NCBI RefSeq assembly: GCF_036347055.1
Contig: NZ_CP108882.1
Location: 4,382,501-4,446,500 of the forward strand
Direction: 5' to 3'
Length of the DNA: 64,000 nucleotides
DNA from: Streptomyces sp. NBC_00820
GTDB lineage: Bacteria > Actinomycetota > Actinomycetes > Streptomycetales > Streptomycetaceae
Shown here: positions 23,699 to 30,121 of the stretch, piece by piece
How positions within the stretch are numbered: position 1 is the first letter of the stretch
Layout of the letters: each line of letters opens with the position of its first letter
Program-made: the position numbers and the translations under genes
Notes under the pieces: generated by a model
What the model saw: only the letters and a program-made list of their open reading frames with translations
Database searches by the model: none
What the model was told of the DNA's origin: nothing

Positions 23699-23993
23699 TC
23701 GCTCCTCTGATCGAGCGCTTCAGGCGGCACGCACCGCCGCCGATCTCGACCGCCGGGCAGGCGGATTGGTTGCCCCGTCCTTTGCCTCTTCGTGAGCTTC
23801 TTTTGGATGGAGAGGTCGTAAAGAGCGTTTGGAGGGGGTTACGCACCCTCTTCACAGAGTCACCCGAGCGTGCTGTTGCGGACTCGTTAAGTAGTACTTC
23901 TTGACGCCGAGTGGCTACTCCGCGTTGTCTTTTCAGACACCTGGGTCGTAAAGAAGCACCCACGTCCGGATCGCACCTGAAGTGAGCCCTCGA
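23699..23993. other. divergent promoter region
   Basis: About 295 bp between the FnIII gene and the lipoprotein gene, relatively AT-rich at 23790-23960. The element GGTCGTAAAGA occurs twice in the same orientation (about 23814 and 23944). No firm promoter assignment. Confidence 0.4.
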
Positions 23994-25100
23994 ATGCGTC
24001 GTATCGCCATGTCCGTGGCCGCGTCCACGATGATCCTCTCGCTCGCCGGCTGCGGTGTGCTGGACGCGACGGGCAGCGGTGCCAGCGCGAGCCCGACCAA
24101 GGGTGACGAGCTCACCGTGGGGCTCCTGCTGCCGGAGAAGGCGAACACCCGCTACGACAAGTTCGACTTCCCCATCATCAAGAGCAAGGTCGCCGAACTG
24201 ACCCACAAGAAGGGCAAGGTGGCCTACGCCAACGCCGACGCGGACGCGACCCGGCAGGCCGGCCAGATGCAGCAGATGATCGACGAGCGGGTCGACGTCA
24301 TCCTGGTCGACGCGGTCGACTCGCACGCCATCGCGGGCGAGGTGCGCAAGGCCAAGGACGCGGGCATCCCGGTCATCGCCTACGACCGGCTGGCCGAGGG
24401 CCCGATCGACGCGTACATCTCCTTCGACAACGAACTCGTGGGCGAGGTGCAGGGCCGCTCGCTGCTGGAGGCGCTGGGGTCCAAGGCCGACACCTCCGAC
24501 AAGATCGTCATGATGAACGGCTCGCCCACCGACCCGAACGCCAAGCAGTTCAAGCAGGGCGCGTTCTCCGAGCTGAACGGCAAGGTGACGATCGCCAAGT
24601 CCTACGACACCACGGACTGGAAGCCGGAGAACGCCACGGCCAGCATGACCGAGGCGATCAACTTCATCGGCAAGGGCAACATCGCCGGTGTCTACGCCGC
24701 CAACGACGGCATGGCGGGCGGTGTCATCAAGGCCCTCAAGGCCGCGGGCCTCACCACGATGCCCCCGATCACCGGCCAGGACGCCGAACTCGACGCGGTA
24801 CAGCGGATCCTCGTCCACGAGCAGTACATGAGCGTCTACAAGTCCTACCCGGACGAGGCCGAGACCGCCGCCCAGATGGCCGTCAACAAGATCCAGGGCA
24901 AGGACATCCAGTTCGACGCCCTCACCCAGGACCGGGTCGACAGCCCCACCGACAAGCAGATCCCGGCCAAGCTCGTCCAGGTGACCGCCCTCACCGCGAG
25001 CAACATCAAGGAGACCGTCGTCGCGGACGGCATCTACTCGATCGGTGACATCTGCACCGCCCGGTACAAGGCCGCCTGCACGGCGGCCGGTCTGCGGTAG
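23994..25100 (+). CDS. sugar ABC transporter substrate-binding lipoprotein (xylose/ribose type)
   Basis: A 368-aa periplasmic-binding-like lipoprotein. The signal peptide ends in lipobox SLAGC (cysteine at residue 19). The domain order matches XylF-type binding proteins: GLLLPEKANTRYDKFDFPII, VDVILVDAVDSHAIAGEV, GIPVIAYDRL, ISFDNELVGEVQGRSL, GVYAANDGMAGGVIKAL and ITGQDAELDAVQRIL. No permease or ATPase gene is adjacent, so it is an orphan in this window. GTG 23982 is an alternative start four codons upstream. Confidence 0.9.
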   Translation: MRRIAMSVAASTMILSLAGCGVLDATGSGASASPTKGDELTVGLLLPEKANTRYDKFDFPIIKSKVAELTHKKGKVAYANADADATRQAGQMQQMIDERVDVILVDAVDSHAIAGEVRKAKDAGIPVIAYDRLAEGPIDAYISFDNELVGEVQGRSLLEALGSKADTSDKIVMMNGSPTDPNAKQFKQGAFSELNGKVTIAKSYDTTDWKPENATASMTEAINFIGKGNIAGVYAANDGMAGGVIKALKAAGLTTMPPITGQDAELDAVQRILVHEQYMSVYKSYPDEAETAAQMAVNKIQGKDIQFDALTQDRVDSPTDKQIPAKLVQVTALTASNIKETVVADGIYSIGDICTARYKAACTAAGLR

Positions 25101-25401: not shown

Positions 25402-26439
25402 ATGACCGGGCACGGGACGCAGGCGCATCCCCACGGTGCCGACCGGCTGTGCGAGCCGGCGCACCGCGTGTACTCCCGGGCCGTGCGCCGCGGGCGGGTG
25501 CCGCGCAGGGACGCCGAGCCGGTGCCCTGTCTGCTGGAGCTGGCCCTGCTCCACCCCGATCCCGATGACATGGACTGGCTGGTGCCCACCTCCCCGCAGG
25601 AGGTGATGAGCCGTCTGCTGCGCGGGGTCTACGACGAGGTCATCGAGGGCCAGCGCCGCGTGGGTTCGGCTGTCGCCGCCTTCGAGCGGTACGCCGGTCT
25701 GGGGCAGCAGGCGCCGACTGCGGTGGCACCGGCCGAGGGCACGGCGATCCGGGTGCTGGACGGGCTGTCCCGGATCCAGACCGCGATCGACGAGGCGACC
25801 GAGGCGTGCACCACCGAGGTGCTCACCGTGCAGCCCGGCGGCATCCGGAGCGAGGACGCGCTGACCGAGGGCCTGCACCGGGCGCTGGAGCTGCGGGGCC
25901 GGGGCGTGCGCATGCGCGACCTGTACACGCATGTCGCCCGGCACGGGCAGGGGTTGCTCAACTACTTCGAGCTGATGGGTGACGCGGTGGAGGCCCGCAC
26001 CCTCGACGAGGTCACCGACCGGCTGATGCTCTTCGACCGCACGGTCGCCTTCATCCCCGCCAACGCCGAGCGCACGATGGCCCTGGAGCTGCGCCATCCG
26101 GCCCTGGTCGAGTACCTGGTGACCGTCTTCGAGCGGCTGTGGCGGCTCGCCCTCCCGCTGACCGCCCCGCTGCCCGACACCGGCATCGACGGCATCTCGC
26201 ACCGCGAGCGCTCCATCGCGGCGCTGCTCGCCGAGGGCCACCAGGACGCGGTGATCGCCGAACGGCTGGGCATCAGCGTGCGCACCTGCCGCGCCCACAT
26301 CGCCCGCCTCTCGGACACCCTCGGCGCGGCCAGCCGTACCCAACTGGGCGTCCGCATCGCCCAGGTGGGCCTGGACGCGTCCCCTTACGTCCGCGCCGAC
26401 GTCATGCTTCCCGGTCAAGGATCCCCGAGCGCCCTATGA
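25402..26439 (+). CDS. TrmB/LuxR-type regulator, paralog A
   Basis: A 345-aa regulator. An N-terminal helical region (about 10-75, beginning RLCEPAHRVYSRAVRRGRVP) precedes a TrmB/phospholipase-D-like sensor domain (about 120-260, including EVLTVQPGG, MRDLYTHVARHG, RTLDEVTDRLMLFDRTVAFI and ALELRHPALVEYLVTVFERL). The end is a LuxR-type HTH (about 270-330, SHRERSIAALLAEGHQDAVI, then RTCRAHIARLSDTLGAASRT). It is paralogous to the three minus-strand genes beside it, and its 3' end overlaps the next gene tail-to-tail by 38 bp. The ligand is unknown. ATG 25402 aligns with the paralog N-termini. Confidence 0.85.
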   Translation: MTGHGTQAHPHGADRLCEPAHRVYSRAVRRGRVPRRDAEPVPCLLELALLHPDPDDMDWLVPTSPQEVMSRLLRGVYDEVIEGQRRVGSAVAAFERYAGLGQQAPTAVAPAEGTAIRVLDGLSRIQTAIDEATEACTTEVLTVQPGGIRSEDALTEGLHRALELRGRGVRMRDLYTHVARHGQGLLNYFELMGDAVEARTLDEVTDRLMLFDRTVAFIPANAERTMALELRHPALVEYLVTVFERLWRLALPLTAPLPDTGIDGISHRERSIAALLAEGHQDAVIAERLGISVRTCRAHIARLSDTLGAASRTQLGVRIAQVGLDASPYVRADVMLPGQGSPSAL

Positions 26440-27379
26440 GGTAGCCGAGTTGGGCGCGGCTCTGGCTGCCCAGGGTCGCGGCGAGCTTGGCGATGTGCAG
26501 ACGGGCGGTACGGACGTTCATGCCGAGGCGATCGGCTATGTCGCCGTCGGTGTGACCTTCGATCAGCAGGTGGGCGATGGCGCGTTGGCGGGCCGTGACG
26601 CCGCTCACGGACGGCCGCCGGGCGGCCTGGGGGTGCATGGGGGTGGCCAGGTGCCACAGCCGGTCGAAGACGATCGCGAGGAAGTCGAGCAGGGTCGGCT
26701 GGCGGATCTCCAGGGCGGCGGACCGGTCCTTGCTCGCGGGGATGAACGCCACTTGCCGGTCGATGAGGAGGAGCCGCTCCGTGACCTGGTCCAGCGTGCG
26801 GGCCTCCACGTCGCCGTGCAGCTGCTCGTAGCGGGCCACGATCGTGGGGACGTGGCGCTGTGTGTGCTGGTAGAGGGTGCGGATGCGGCCGCCCCGGTCG
26901 AGCAGGGCCTGGTCGCGGGGGATGGAGACGTCCCGTACGGTCAAGTCCCCGATGTTGCGCGGCTGGATGGTGAGGATCTCGCCCGAGACGTTCGCCATCG
27001 CCTCGGAGATGGCGTCGTTGATCCGGTCGAGGCCGCTCAGCAGCCGGATGCCCACCGCGTCCGCCGGCTCGGTGTCCGGGCCCCCGAGCGCGAGGAGCGG
27101 TTCGAACGCCTCGGCGATCCGGGTTTCGAGCCGGCGTTCGTCGGCGATGCGTTCCGCGGAGGCGTGGAAGAGCCGTTGGAGGGCGACGGTCGTGGCGACG
27201 GGCTCCAGCCGGTCCAGGTCGGTGACGGTGGGTTCCAGAAGCCCGAACCGCAGCAGGCAGGGTGCCGCCTCGGCCTCCGCGGCGCTGATCCCTCCCTCCC
27301 GCAGGGAGCGCTCGTAGAGAGCCGTTCCCGCCGCGCACAGGTCCGTGGGGTCGTGCTCGGCATGGAGAGCCGCACTCAC
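26402..27379 (-). CDS. TrmB/LuxR-type regulator, paralog B
   Basis: A 325-aa regulator with the same layout as its neighbours: N-terminal helices (DLCAAGTALYERSLREGG), a TrmB/PLD-like middle (EILTIQPRNIGD, IRTLYQHTQRHVP, EARTLDQVTERLLLIDRQVA) and a C-terminal LuxR-type HTH (TARQRAIAHLLIEGHTDGDI, then NVRTARLHIAKLAATLGSQS). Its ATG overlaps the stop of paralog C by 4 nt (ATGA), so it is translationally coupled as the last gene of a three-gene operon. Its tail overlaps convergent paralog A. Confidence 0.85.
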   Translation of the reverse strand: MSAALHAEHDPTDLCAAGTALYERSLREGGISAAEAEAAPCLLRFGLLEPTVTDLDRLEPVATTVALQRLFHASAERIADERRLETRIAEAFEPLLALGGPDTEPADAVGIRLLSGLDRINDAISEAMANVSGEILTIQPRNIGDLTVRDVSIPRDQALLDRGGRIRTLYQHTQRHVPTIVARYEQLHGDVEARTLDQVTERLLLIDRQVAFIPASKDRSAALEIRQPTLLDFLAIVFDRLWHLATPMHPQAARRPSVSGVTARQRAIAHLLIEGHTDGDIADRLGMNVRTARLHIAKLAATLGSQSRAQLGYLIGRSGILDREA

Positions 27380-28371
27380 TCGTGTTCCCCCTCCTGGTCG
27401 AGGATTCCGGACTGGCCGATGAGGTAACCGAGTTGGGCGCGGCTCTGGCTGCCGAGACCGGCGGCGAGTTTGGCGATGTGCAGGCGGGCGGTGCGGACGT
27501 TCATGCCGAGGCGCTCGGCTATGTCGGTGTCGGTGTGGCCCTCGACGAGGAGGGTGGCGATGGCGCGCTGGCGGGGGGTCATGCCCTCCGGGGAGGGCGG
27601 CTGGACCTCCTGGGGGTACATGGGGGTGGCCAGGTGCCAGAGGCGGTCGAAGACGGTGACCAGGAACTCGACCAGCGCCGGGTGCCGGATCTCCAGGGCG
27701 ACGGTGCGGTCCTTGCTCGCCGGTATGAAGGCCACCGTCCGGTCGAAGACGAGGAGCCGCTCGGTGACCTCGTTCAGCGTGCGGGCCTCCACGTCGCCGC
27801 GCAGGCGTTCATAGCGGGTGTGGATGGTGGGGGCGTGGCGGAGGGTGTGCTGGTAGAGGCTGCGGACACGGCCGCCGCGGTCCAGCAGGGCCTGGTCGCG
27901 CTCAAGCGCGAGGGCGAACAGGCGCGGAGGTATACGGGTGTGGGTGGGGTGCGTGTGTATCGCGAGGCATTCCTTGGAGGAGTCCGCCATGACCTGGGAG
28001 ATGGCCTCGTTGATCCGGTCGAGTCCGCTGTGCACCTTGAACGCCGGCGAAACATCGGGGACCCCGGCGAGGCGGGCCTTCGCCTGCAGCAGGGGCCCGA
28101 AGTTCTGGGCGACGAGGGCCTCACGCCGCCGTTCGTCGGCGATGCGCTCCGCGGAGGCGCGGAGCAGCCGCTGGAGGGCGACGGCCGCGGCGACGGGCTC
28201 CAGCCGGTCCATGTCCGTGACGGACGGCTGCAGCAGCCCGAACCGCAGCAGGCAGGGCGTCGCCGCGGCCTCGGCCCGCGTGAGACATCCCGCACGCAGG
28301 GCGCGTTCGTACAGACTCGTTCCTGCCTCGCACAGCTCCTCGGGTCCGTGGTCGTGCGCTCCTGCGGTCAC
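27376..28371 (-). CDS. TrmB/LuxR-type regulator, paralog C
   Basis: A 331-aa regulator, the middle gene of the operon. GTG 28371 is chosen because it overlaps the upstream gene's TGA (GTGA), has GGGAGCGA upstream, and aligns with its paralogs; a longer in-frame extension upstream is not coding. The N-terminal helical part is EELCEAGTSLYERALRAGCL. The sensor region includes RVRSLYQHTLRHAP and EARTLNEVTERLLVFDRTVA. The HTH is TPRQRAIATLLVEGHTDTDI, then NVRTARLHIAKLAAGLGSQS, nearly identical to paralog B, which suggests a recent duplication. Confidence 0.85.
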   Translation of the reverse strand: MTAGAHDHGPEELCEAGTSLYERALRAGCLTRAEAAATPCLLRFGLLQPSVTDMDRLEPVAAAVALQRLLRASAERIADERRREALVAQNFGPLLQAKARLAGVPDVSPAFKVHSGLDRINEAISQVMADSSKECLAIHTHPTHTRIPPRLFALALERDQALLDRGGRVRSLYQHTLRHAPTIHTRYERLRGDVEARTLNEVTERLLVFDRTVAFIPASKDRTVALEIRHPALVEFLVTVFDRLWHLATPMYPQEVQPPSPEGMTPRQRAIATLLVEGHTDTDIAERLGMNVRTARLHIAKLAAGLGSQSRAQLGYLIGQSGILDQEGEHE

Positions 28372-29378
28372 GGATGGCTCGCTCCCCTCACTGTTCCGGG
28401 CTCCTGGTTGAGGATTCCGGACTGGGCTATGAGAAATCCGAGCTGAGCCCGGCTGCCGCTGCCCAGGGCCTGGGCGAGCTTGGCGATGTGGGCGCGGCAG
28501 GTGCGGACGTTCATGCCGAGGCGGCGGGCGATGGCCTCGTCGACGTGGCCTTCGACGAGGAGCTTGGCGATGGAGTGCTGAATGTCGGTGATGCCGTCGG
28601 GGGCCGTCTCGTAGGGGGCGCCCGCACTCAGCGGTACCGCACGGTTCCACATGAACTCGAAGACCTTGATCAGGTAGCGGACCAGGCCGGGGTGACGGAG
28701 TTCCAGGGCTACCTGGCGGTCGTCGCTTATCGGGATGAACGCCACGCTCTCGTCGCAGATGATGAGACGCTCGACCAGTTCGTCGATGGTGCGGTATTCC
28801 GCCTTGCCGTTGGTGAACTGGTGCACGTAGGCGAGGCGTTCAGGGCTGTATCGCGCGGTGTGCTGGTAGAGGGTGCGGAGGCGGACTCCTCGTTCGATCA
28901 AGGGCTTGTCGCGTTCGAGTCCTTCGATGAGCCGGTGCTCCGGGTGGCGGGCACTGGGCTGTACCGTGAGGACTTCGTTCTGGCACTGGGCCGTAGCCAG
29001 GTCGAGTGCCCCGTTGATTCGGTCGAGACCCTCCAGCACGGTGACCGAACGGCTGGACGTGGTGACCTGAGCGCTGAGGGACATGAACGGCTCGAAGGCC
29101 TCGGCAAGTTCGGTCGACAGCTTTCTGCGCTCGGTGATTTCACGCTCGAGGGGGCCGAGGACCTGGGTCAGTGCGACCGATGCGGGAACGGGGCGCAGCC
29201 AGTTCGCGTCATCAGGGTCAGGGTGGAGGAGGGTGAACTCCATCAGGCACGGAGCGGCATCCGCGTCTGCGCGGGCGATACGCCCCGAGCGCAGCGCGTT
29301 CGCGTAGAGGTGCCTGCCTGCCTCGCACAGGTCCGTCAAGGCATGAGGATGTGTCCCTTTAGTGCGATTCGTTGCCAA
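28368..29378 (-). CDS. TrmB/LuxR-type regulator, paralog D
   Basis: A 336-aa regulator and first gene of the three-gene operon. N-terminus DLCEAGRHLYANALRSGRIA; sensor domain with EVLTVQPSARHPEHRLIEGL, LRTLYQHTARYSP, YRTIDELVERLIICDESVAF and ALELRHPGLVRYLIKVFEFM; HTH ITDIQHSIAKLLVEGHVDEA, then NVRTCRAHIAKLAQALGSGS. This recognition helix resembles that of paralog A (RTCRAHI) more than B and C (RTARLHI). The TTG at 29378 with GGAG close upstream fits paralog length. It is divergent from the secreted-peptide gene. Confidence 0.85.
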   Translation of the reverse strand: MATNRTKGTHPHALTDLCEAGRHLYANALRSGRIARADADAAPCLMEFTLLHPDPDDANWLRPVPASVALTQVLGPLEREITERRKLSTELAEAFEPFMSLSAQVTTSSRSVTVLEGLDRINGALDLATAQCQNEVLTVQPSARHPEHRLIEGLERDKPLIERGVRLRTLYQHTARYSPERLAYVHQFTNGKAEYRTIDELVERLIICDESVAFIPISDDRQVALELRHPGLVRYLIKVFEFMWNRAVPLSAGAPYETAPDGITDIQHSIAKLLVEGHVDEAIARRLGMNVRTCRAHIAKLAQALGSGSRAQLGFLIAQSGILNQEPGTVRGASHP

Positions 29379-29412
29379 ATCTCCACCCCCCAGGGTCCTG
29401 AACGTGCAGGAA

Positions 29413-29444
29413 CATGATGCACTGATTGTGTGGCCATGATGTGC
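29413..29444. promoter_or_regulatory. direct-repeat candidate operator in divergent promoter
   Basis: CATGATGCAC and CATGATGTGC lie in direct orientation 22 bp apart (two helical turns) in the 112-bp region between paralog D and the peptide gene. The position suits control of both transcripts by one of the regulators. Inference only. Confidence 0.45.
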
Positions 29445-29490
29445 CCGAATGAGCCATCGTCTTGTTCGACGGGGGAAGAGGGGATTTCAA

Positions 29491-29700
29491 GTGAGGACGA
29501 AGCCGCCTATGCGAAAGAGAACGCTTCGCTCGGTACTTGTCGCCGCCTTCTTCGCCGTTGTGGCCTTCGGGTCGCTGAGTGGCCTCGGTGGCGCGAAGGG
29601 TGACGTACGAGCGGACACTGTTTGGTCCGTCACGGCCGATGTCGGCCACGGCTCCACGGACGCTACGCCCGCCCTTCCAGACGACACCGTGTGGAGCTGA
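29491..29700 (+). CDS. small secreted peptide precursor with paired DTVWS motif
   Basis: A 69-aa precursor. A basic n-region (residues 1-13) is followed by a hydrophobic core (SVLVAAFFAVVAFGSLSGLG, about 14-33). A VRA cleavage site falls after residue 41, predicting export by Sec. The predicted mature peptide is 28 residues; it begins DTVWS (42-46) and ends DTVWS (65-69), with an acidic, Pro/Thr/Ser-containing spacer and no Cys. GTG 29491 is chosen because GAGGGGAT lies six bases upstream; an ATG at 29449 lacks this. It is divergent from three TrmB/LuxR regulators and one base upstream of a Rieske-like gene. A signalling peptide is the favoured guess; no family name is known to me. Confidence 0.75.
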   Translation: MRTKPPMRKRTLRSVLVAAFFAVVAFGSLSGLGGAKGDVRADTVWSVTADVGHGSTDATPALPDDTVWS

Positions 29701-29701
29701 C

Positions 29702-30037
29702 GTGACCACTCCACCCGACGACCGCTCCTTCCGTCGCGAGATGGCCACCGCCTACCGCTCCGGCTGGCACTTCATCGACCTGGTCACCGCCATCCCCCAC
29801 AGCGGTGACTCGCTGATGGTGACCGTCTTCGGTGAGCCGGTGGTCGTCACCCGGGACGACGACGAGGACGTACGGGCGTACCGGTGCCTGCGCAAGCCGC
29901 GTGGGGCGCCGCAGCCCGTGCGGTGTGCCGTGCGGTACGGCATGATCTTTGTGAACCTGGACCAACGGGACCACCGGCTGGCAGAACCGGATGTCCCGGA
30001 CGTGCGGACCATTTCAGCCACCCCCCGCAGTGCCTGA
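29702..30037 (+). CDS. diminutive Rieske-like protein lacking cluster ligands
   Basis: A 111-aa protein. Its first 60 residues resemble the start of Rieske oxygenase alpha-subunit domains (FRREMATAYRSGWHFIDLVT, then VTVFGEPVVVTRDDD). It continues YRCLRKPRGAP, where the C-x-H cluster half-site is expected, then jumps to RYGMIFVNLDQRDHRL, a segment that normally follows the second half-site. The two His and the second Cys pair of a 2Fe-2S Rieske site are missing, so it cannot hold a normal cluster. GTG 29702 starts one base after the peptide stop, implying coupled translation. Role unknown; binding or modifying the peptide is a guess. Confidence 0.65.
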   Translation: MTTPPDDRSFRREMATAYRSGWHFIDLVTAIPHSGDSLMVTVFGEPVVVTRDDDEDVRAYRCLRKPRGAPQPVRCAVRYGMIFVNLDQRDHRLAEPDVPDVRTISATPRSA

Positions 30038-30080
30038 CGCGATTCCCCCGTCGTAAAAGATCGCTCAGGTACTTCCCCCC

Positions 30081-30121
30081 GCAGCGGCGTCACCGTGACC
30101 TGAACACGGTGACGCCGCTGC
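30081..30121 (+). terminator. terminator of the peptide/Rieske-like operon
   Basis: A perfect 17-bp stem (GCAGCGGCGTCACCGTG with its complement) around a 7-nt loop, followed by AGTTTG, 43 nt after the Rieske-like stop. This marks the peptide and Rieske-like genes as a two-gene unit. Confidence 0.88.

Follow-up and report, generated by a model that had tools for sequence, protein, structure and literature searches.

Results

Organization of the locus

The window, the whole 64,000-nucleotide stretch of Streptomyces sp. NBC_00820 DNA that was analysed, contains four paralogous regulator genes (R0, R1, R2, and R3), a gene for a small peptide precursor, and a gene for a degenerate Rieske-like protein (Table 1). 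R1, R2, and R3 overlap by 4 nt each and R0 is convergent, confirming the operon of three regulators recognized in the preliminary description. The 17-bp terminator-like hairpin noted there at the end of the locus was also borne out, with arms at 30081-30097 and 30105-30121 that pair exactly over 17 bp; a terminator consensus scanner did not list the 30081-30121 hairpin, and few T residues lie downstream of it. The heat-shock gene clpB lies just outside the module in nearly all of the Streptomyces architectures listed. The neighbours of the precursor gene recognized in Streptomyces are R-type regulators, the Rieske-like protein, PPOX, and ClpB, the other flanking ORFs being unclassified and the flanks elsewhere short.

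Table 1. Features of the locus, in window coordinates.
Feature	Position	Strand	Description
R0	25402-26439	+	Convergent TrmB/LuxR-type regulator paralogue; 38-nt overlap with R1
R1	26402-27379	-	R3 paralogue; no covariation with local peptide positions 2, 3, 5
R2	27376-28371	-	R3 paralogue; no covariation with local peptide positions 2, 3, 5
R3	28368-29378	-	TTG start; proposed receptor, divergent neighbour of the peptide gene
R3 codon 136 (Val)	28971..28973	-	Predicted specificity residue for peptide position 2
R3 codon 157 (Asp)	28908..28910	-	Occurs exactly with Ser or Thr at peptide position 2
Dyad TCCTGAACGTGCAGGA	29396..29411		Candidate operator, conserved, between R3 and the peptide gene
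Peptide precursor ORF	29491-29700	+	69 aa from a GTG start codon; signal peptide Sec-like by eye; DTVWS twice
DTVWS copy 1	29614..29628	+	Immediately 3' of likely signal-peptidase site VRA/D (by eye)
DTVWS copy 2	29683..29697	+	C-terminus of the precursor
Rieske-like ORF	29702-30037	+	Degenerate, 111 aa, accessory
Inverted repeat, perfect 17 bp, 7-nt loop	30081..30121	+	Ends the peptide/Rieske-like unit

The dyad TCCTGAACGTGCAGGA lies within a block in which most columns are more than 90% conserved among 195 aligned loci, one dyad base being variable. The exact dyad is unique in the genome. A regulon search allowing up to 2 mismatches returned 28 sites versus 23 for the reversed control, and thus there is no clear excess of dyad-like sites.

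The precursor repeats a single DxxW word

The peptide ORF encodes a multi-copy precursor, predicted to be exported, whose tail repeats one [D/N/E]xxW word. In the window, the two DTVWS copies are written in different codons (GAC ACT GTT TGG TCC and GAC ACC GTG TGG AGC). Among 192 unique precursors, obtained after identical sequences were collapsed and 25/249 stretches were left out by a strict start filter, 524 of the 528 Trp residues beyond residue 25 sit in [DEN]xxW. All copies are the identical tetrapeptide in 139 of the 144 multi-copy precursors, with synonymous codon differences between the copies in 117 of them. Copy identity within precursors was 781/788 pairs, versus 0.062 between precursors, and 41 different words were found across species. 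Words that are uniform inside a precursor and divergent between species form the pattern expected of a pheromone. The orthologous precursors align from the GTG codon used in the window, and some have ATG there.

The second DTVWS copy had been overlooked in the preliminary description, which took the whole 28-residue peptide as the signal; the signal is probably instead the short DxxW(x) word that recurs in the precursor.

The survey of co-occurrence across Streptomyces genomes that the preliminary description proposed was performed, and the genes were found together across the genus: the peptide ORF was matched in 132/199 genus genomes (E<=0.01) and the Rieske-like gene in 163/199, frequencies that are not due to chance. 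All 132 peptide-positive genomes are among the 163 Rieske-like-positive ones, as judged by comparing the lists by eye.

Domain architecture of R3

R3 consists of a TrmB-like N-terminal region (~11-63), a long helix, a PLD-like sensor (109-253), and a LuxR-type HTH (260-330). Its N-terminal part aligns with TrmBL2, and the sensor, modelled as a PLD-like domain, aligns to TrmB-type domains. A profile built from R0-R3 and related sequences matched the TrmBL2 sensor 5box (E 1.8e-8), and the GerE/LuxR HTH was matched by Pfam in all four regulators, above the cut-off in R0, R1, and R2 and below it in R3. These matches uphold the TrmB/PLD-like and LuxR assignment originally given to the four regulators. 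Neither TPR repeats (Pfam, E<=1) nor an autoinducer-binding domain (Pfam) was matched in the regulators, and no signal peptide or membrane segment is visible by eye in R3.

R3 coevolves with the word

Among the four regulators, R3 alone has changed in concert with positions 2, 3, and 5 of the word, a pattern seen over some two hundred relatives. At the main locus, residue 136 of R3 follows position 2 of the word, with Ser paired with Met in 104/104 cases, Thr with Val in 57/58, Ile with Val in 17/17, and Pro with Leu in 11/11; an FTEW word with Leu136 is an exception. In addition, Asp157 of R3 was present in 162/162 cases with Ser or Thr at position 2 and in 0/54 with other residues. In phylogenetically disjoint pairs discordant for Ser/Thr, residue 136 switched between Met and Val in 36/36, compared with 4/84 of the concordant pairs. 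On the 418 branches of a tree built from the Rieske-like protein, PPOX, and ClpB, 40 of the 58 position-2 changes fell on the 53 branches on which R3-136 changed, whereas ~7 would be expected if the two were independent.

In distance-matched column scans for position 2, R3-136 reached 0.88, followed by 0.28 for the next R3 column; the best control column (R1/R2, R0, Rieske-like, PPOX, ClpB) reached 0.18, and the Rieske-like protein 0.09. For position 3, R3 reached up to 0.31 versus <=0.11 for the controls, the signal being spread across several columns and not reducible to a single rule. For position 5, R3 reached up to 0.48 versus <=0.24. The scan for position 1 was non-discriminating (R3 0.53, R1/R2 0.46, R0 0.39, Rieske-like 0.27, PPOX 0.24, ClpB 0.17), its covariation probably representing clade effects linked to the rare words that begin with N or E, and position 1 was left out of the receptor argument. 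The scans were run without the loci L101, L108, L118, and L168 (no word) and L213 (no R3 sequence); L101, L108, and L118, checked later, all obey the rule linking residue 136 to position 2.

The preliminary description held that the peptide is sensed by one or more of the regulators. This is supported for one regulator, R3, of which the peptide is probably the ligand. R0 and R1/R2, considered as receptors of the local peptide, were rejected on the negative scans at positions 2, 3, and 5. In R0, position 136 is almost fixed as Val (158/163) and position 157 as Ala (158/163). R3 is the sole such regulator in 34 of the 213 loci having >=6.5 kb upstream. R0, R1, and R2 may respond to other words, among them words used by competitors.

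The pairing recurs outside the main locus

Peptide and regulator are also paired, without the Rieske-like gene, in Nocardioides genomes and at second loci of Streptomyces. When candidates were required to lie on the opposite strand at <=700 nt and to carry a word beginning with D, 73 of 89 loci other than the main one had a DxxW peptide; of the 16/89 regulators without one, 7 are among the 12 second loci of the genus of the window. L302 (DDDW) was dropped, and L308 (DPIW) failed the filter. At these outside loci, Met136 accompanied Ser at position 2 in 20/24 cases and Thr in 1/41 (Fisher 7e-12, ignoring ancestry), and Asp157 occurred in 64/65 cases with Ser/Thr and in 0/8 otherwise (7e-10, ignoring ancestry). 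In the scan for position 2, residue 136 ranked first and residue 157 second. The exceptions are L307, L330, L334, and L386 (Ser without Met), L374 (Thr-Met), and L347 (Thr-Glu157); L308, which is outside this count, has Val136 and not Leu with its DPIW word. The top position-3 columns differ from the Streptomyces ones. The precursor architecture, the conserved pairing, the R3-confined coevolution at positions 2, 3, and 5, and the position-2 rule in another lineage are all computed from the genomes.

The Rieske-like protein is degenerate and accessory

The Rieske-like protein gave a weak match to the Rieske domain in Pfam (15.1 bits versus a cut-off of 20.3). The expected CxH / CxxH motifs read CLR / CAVR, both His positions being Arg, so that the label 'cluster-less' given to it at the outset is fair. 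C62 is kept in 244/245 and C75 in 243/245 aligned Rieske-like sequences, and R64 and R78 do not vary among 32 sequences. The AF2 model is weak (pLDDT 64.7), and a Foldseek search with it returned ring-hydroxylating dioxygenases as the best matches (E 0.03) and none at E<=0.001.

The gene was found in 1/17 genera of a family sample and beside the regulator at 0/89 of the outside loci. The 118 Nocardioides genomes yielded only 14 weak matches, all within ORFs of 432-1080 aa, and a plasmid search gave no match. A role for the Rieske-like protein as a necessary maturation enzyme was rejected on the family, outside-locus, and Nocardioides results.

Discussion

A model for DxxW sensing

On the genomic patterns described above, we consider it quite likely that the DxxW(x) word is a pheromone that is exported through Sec, released by proteolysis, and, once taken back into the cell, bound by R3 through its TrmB/PLD-like sensor; export, processing, import, binding, the direction of regulation, and the regulon are what we infer. 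In the proposed mechanism, Sec would export the precursor, and signal peptidase together with extracellular proteases would release short linear [D/N/E]xxW peptides (here DTVW or DTVWS), additional copies per precursor increasing the yield. An oligopeptide permease would take up the peptide, which would then bind the PLD-like (TrmB-type) sensor of cytosolic R3; re-import and cytosolic binding are proposed because the receptor has no visible export signal. The BldK permease of S. coelicolor, as a possible importer of a peptide, is a lead and not evidence.

In the sensor, Val136 is predicted to pack on residue 2 of the peptide and Asp157 to touch its Ser/Thr hydroxyl, and R3 residues near 143-153, 181-188, and 217-221 may read positions 3 and 5. 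Peptide binding would alter the action of the LuxR-type HTH, at least at the R3/peptide-gene dyad (feedback). With such word-specific sensing, each species would hear mainly its own word.

Alternatively, the DxxW peptide may be the ligand of R3 but serve as a secreted effector (antimicrobial, surface, or metal-binding), with R3 sensing its breakdown products as production feedback. This is unlikely, although the Sec-type precursor has an operon partner and the dyad occurs nowhere else in the genome, which would suit local autoregulation; an effector has no need for 4-residue words that are identical within a precursor, vary freely from species to species, and find their match in a single receptor residue. 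It is less likely still that R3 senses the peptide before it leaves the cell, the pair monitoring secretion or proteolysis rather than other cells. The absence of a visible signal peptide or membrane segment in R3 and the clpB gene just past the module in nearly all architectures listed fit this explanation, but the divergence of the words between species then lacks an obvious reason, and ClpB was not matched at any of the 89 outside loci (flanks 1.5-3 kb).

That the covariation arose because linked genes were transferred horizontally together or hitchhiked, with the peptide and R3 making no contact, is highly improbable. R3 adjoins the peptide gene, an exchange of cassettes may account for some of the switches on the control tree, and the position-1 covariation, being spread over several genes, indicates that clade effects exist. 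However, hitchhiking would lift many R3 columns as well as the equally close Rieske-like gene, whereas one R3 column stands out at position 2 (0.88 versus 0.28, Rieske-like 0.09), and the same R3 residue responds in a separate lineage with a different gene order. Equally improbable is the other suggestion of the preliminary description, that the Rieske-like protein shapes a product which then acts as the signal: the peptide stop and the Rieske-like start are some ten bases apart or less in nearly all loci, but the protein lacks the Rieske His ligands, its gene is missing beside the regulators at all 89 outside loci, and nothing else points to such a product.

A candidate class of peptide signalling

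Returning to the pheromone model, we lean towards the view that signalling through DxxW peptides and TrmB-LuxR receptors constitutes a class of its own, hitherto undescribed, in several actinobacterial lineages. Its specificity would be set largely by a receptor code that can be read from the sequence, residues 136 and 157 answering to position 2 and other patches of the sensor to positions 3 and 5. Signalling between soil bacteria by such tiny DxxW peptides, to which the patterns point, has apparently gone undescribed so far. No description of the DxxW peptide/receptor combination was found in the open-access literature, with bioRxiv outside the scope, including the accessible parts of PMC2687793, PMC4748050, and PMC13220807; within this literature, the earlier statement that no description is known stands. 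If the proposal is true, the signal is genetically encoded, chemically simple, readable from genomes, and directly synthesizable, with a predicted specificity residue. DxxW control of development or antibiotic production could be tested by anyone, and silent gene clusters might be woken. The receptors would be a new cytosolic short-peptide family unrelated to RRNPP, and the loci a natural collection of orthogonal peptide/receptor pairs.

Relation to known systems

RRNPP systems have neighbouring genes for precursor and receptor and strain-specific words. Their peptides are imported by Opp and then bound to cytosolic receptors, according to the accessible part of PMC13220807. At the present locus, too, a small precursor, exported according to its by-eye signal peptide, is encoded beside a regulator. 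If our model holds, the likeness to RRNPP (Rap/Phr, PlcR/PapR, NprR/NprX, Rgg, and PrgX of Firmicutes) extends to a short peptide, its import, and a cytosolic receptor. In contrast to RRNPP, R3 has no TPR match and consists of a TrmB/PLD-like sensor and a LuxR-type HTH, the word is DxxW, the precursor is multi-copy, and the hosts are Actinobacteria.

R3 resembles a ligand-binding TrmB joined to a LuxR-type HTH. Archaeal TrmB senses sugar (title of 2f5t), whereas R3 adds the C-terminal LuxR-type HTH and its proposed ligand is a peptide. R3 shares the GerE-type C-terminal HTH with the LuxR-type quorum-sensing receptors VqmA and CviR, but no autoinducer-binding domain was matched in it.

The SapB/AmfS lanthipeptides are enzymatically modified. 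These class III lanthipeptides are extracellular Streptomyces peptides linked to development (PMC13380574, accessible part), and gamma-butyrolactones are named as the Streptomyces signals in the accessible parts of two reviews (PMC4748050, PMC13220807). Unlike for SapB/AmfS, no lanthipeptide synthetase is among the genes recognized beside the DxxW precursor. Without any homology being implied, the repeated copies recall yeast alpha-factor, a eukaryotic pheromone with a GPCR receptor, whose secreted precursor carries several copies of one pheromone with spacers between them.

Organization and distribution of the locus

The ORF layout given in the preliminary description, in which a peptide/Rieske-like unit faces an operon of three paralogous regulators and a fourth is convergent to them (R0-R3, each a TrmB/PLD-like sensor with a LuxR-type HTH), is borne out by the coordinates in the window, which lies on an 8.1-Mb chromosome. 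Across the loci, the core gene set consists of the proposed receptor R3, the peptide, and the Rieske-like protein, and the number of R0, R1, and R2 genes varies; among the 213 loci whose upstream flank spans 6.5 kb or more, 34 have R3 as the sole such regulator.

Features of the locus in the window
Feature	Strand	Position	Remark
Xylose-type ABC substrate-binding protein		23982-25100	adjoins R0 in many related loci
R0	+		convergent to R3-R2-R1
R3-R2-R1 operon	-		4-nt overlaps
Peptide ORF		29491-29700	divergent from R3
Rieske-like ORF		29702-30037	divergent from R3, after peptide ORF
Perfect 17-bp hairpin		30081-30121	closes peptide/Rieske-like unit
PPOX/F420 gene			downstream of the unit
clpB			downstream, with PPOX/F420 gene; NCBIfam equivalog, 1283 bits

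Of the 199 genomes covered by the genus search, 163 gave a match to the Rieske-like gene and 132 to the peptide ORF; compared by eye, the two lists place all 132 inside the 163. Including the window, 249 stretches with the Rieske-like gene were collected, some genomes entering via two sources. In 248 of them, automatic calling placed a [DENF]xxW word, the repeated stretch of the precursor (DTVWS in the window), in the ORF directly 5' of the Rieske-like gene; three of these calls (L101, L108, and L118) were in odd frames and were verified by eye. The sole stretch without a call (L168, G023:C1:85694-95481) is a second Rieske-like copy in its genome, with no recognizable adjoining DxxW precursor.

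The 27 database matches of the peptide were named "hypothetical" or "uncharacterized" or had no name, and the 120 relatives listed per regulator were named "helix-turn-helix", "DNA-binding CsgD family", "LuxR family", "TrmB", or "hypothetical". A description of such a system was not found in the open-access library searched. The working logic of the proposed DxxW/R3 system is similar to that of the RRNPP systems, to which it nevertheless does not belong because the receptor fold, word, and hosts differ. None of the searches performed linked any component to an established family of peptide signals; the logic of a secreted linear peptide and a cytosolic receptor has precedent.

Identical word copies in the precursor

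In most precursors the start is shared and resembles a signal peptide (VRTKPTMRKRMLRSVLVAAFSAVVAFG...), and the tail changes fast. A strict filter on this start kept 224 precursors (192 unique) from the 249 stretches, in which 524 of 528 tail Trp residues lie inside [DEN]xxW, at 1 to 10 copies per precursor, with none in one precursor. The four letters are identical in every copy in 139 of the 144 precursors that carry at least two, and the other five (e.g., DSTW/DSVW in L184 and DLAW/DLGW in L117) look as if one word were changing into another. Copies were identical in 781 of 788 within-precursor pairs, as compared to ~6% of between-precursor draws.

Recent duplication alone is insufficient to explain this identity, because synonymous differences among copies occur in 117 of the 144 multi-copy precursors; of the four DTVWS codons that have synonyms, three differ between the two copies in the window, including Ser TCC versus AGC. 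These differences are rarer than in independent draws (0.258 versus 0.543), and therefore duplication also contributes.

The largest array seen, 19 DTKW copies upstream of the Rieske-like gene in L101, is outside the strict-filter count. Two genomes labelled Streptomyces cellostaticus carry DSTW/DSVW (L184) and DLGW (L196), as if a single species name can cover more than one type of word.

Coevolution of R3 with the word

R3 is the coevolving partner of the peptide. With overall distance matched, each protein was scanned for alignment columns that differ more between loci with unlike peptide letters. For position 2 of the word, R3 column 136 scored 0.88 and the second R3 column 0.28, whereas the best control columns reached 0.08 (R1/R2), 0.12 (R0), 0.09 (Rieske-like), 0.16 (PPOX), and 0.18 (ClpB). 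For position 3, R3 reached 0.31 (top columns 181, 145, 153, 143, and 217) and the other proteins ≤0.11; for position 5, scored only where constant inside the precursor, R3 reached 0.48 (221, 149, 188, 148, and 186) and the others ≤0.24 (one Rieske-like column). All of these R3 columns are in the sensor domain. Position 1 was non-discriminating (R3, 0.53; R1/R2, 0.46; R0, 0.39; Rieske-like, 0.27; PPOX, 0.24; ClpB, 0.17).

Residue 136 of R3 by word position 2, in 216 unique R3
Position 2	R3-136
Ser	Met 104/104
Thr	Val 57/58; exception, odd word FTEW, with Leu
Ile	Val 17/17
Pro	Leu 11/11
Phe	Ala 2/2
Leu (mixed)	Val 8, Ile 3, Ala 2, gap 1
Val (mixed)	Val 8, Leu 1, Ile 1

Side-chain sizes at position 2 and residue 136 tend to be inverse, small meeting large and large meeting small, as would be expected of a contact. 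Asp157 is present in 162/162 R3 with Ser or Thr at position 2 and in 0/54 with other residues, a split that is in part one deep clade difference; the pattern is as if Asp157 bonded the Ser/Thr hydroxyl.

Shared ancestry was controlled with a FastTree tree of Rieske-like, PPOX, and ClpB (210 tips, 418 branches). Position 2 changes on 58 branches, residue 136 on 53, and both on 40, of which 31 combine Ser/Thr with Met/Val switches. Residue 136 differs, always as Met/Val, in 36/36 phylogenetically disjoint Ser/Thr-discordant pairs, as compared to 4/84 concordant ones; this separation is 0.95 for column 136 and 0.44 for the runner-up. Exchange of the R3-peptide cassette may lie behind some switches, but would not pick out one single R3 column.

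Replication outside the main locus

With a cut-off of E≤1e-30, members of the regulator family turned up in 55 of 296 class genomes, spanning 12 of 114 genera. Within the genus g55, which the names of its close relatives in the database assign to Nocardioides, 111 of 118 genomes had the family. From the best of these lists, we sampled 89 regulators outside the main, Rieske-like-linked locus (74 from g55, 12 from second loci of the window's genus, and 3 others). Beside 73 of them (67, 5, and 1, respectively), the opposite strand carries, ≤700 nt from the regulator, a small ORF whose start is signal-like and whose DxxW word begins with D. This ORF is on the 3' side in 68 of the 73; the filter found none at the other 16. 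Searches with tblastn (1e-3) gave no Rieske-like, PPOX, or ClpB matches at the 89 loci, and across the 118 g55 genomes the only Rieske-like matches were 14 weak ones, all within ORFs of 432-1080 aa. Many g55 precursors read AxA/DxxWG, and thus signal peptidase itself could free the N-terminus of the word.

In these out-of-sample loci, with Fisher values that ignore ancestry, Met136 accompanied Ser in 20/24 cases and Thr in 1/41, and Asp157 accompanied Ser/Thr in 64/65 and other residues in 0/8. The scan of the 73 loci for position 2 ranked column 136 top (0.41) and column 157 second (0.27). Thr was mostly paired with Leu136 (27/41), and therefore the exact partner varies by lineage while the site is constant.

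The window's own genome contains a second pair, an R3-like regulator (G000:C1:3767573-3768478; L268, L309) with V136 and D157, and a divergent small exported ORF with the word DTAW, as DTAWG. This strain may thus possess two signals of this kind.
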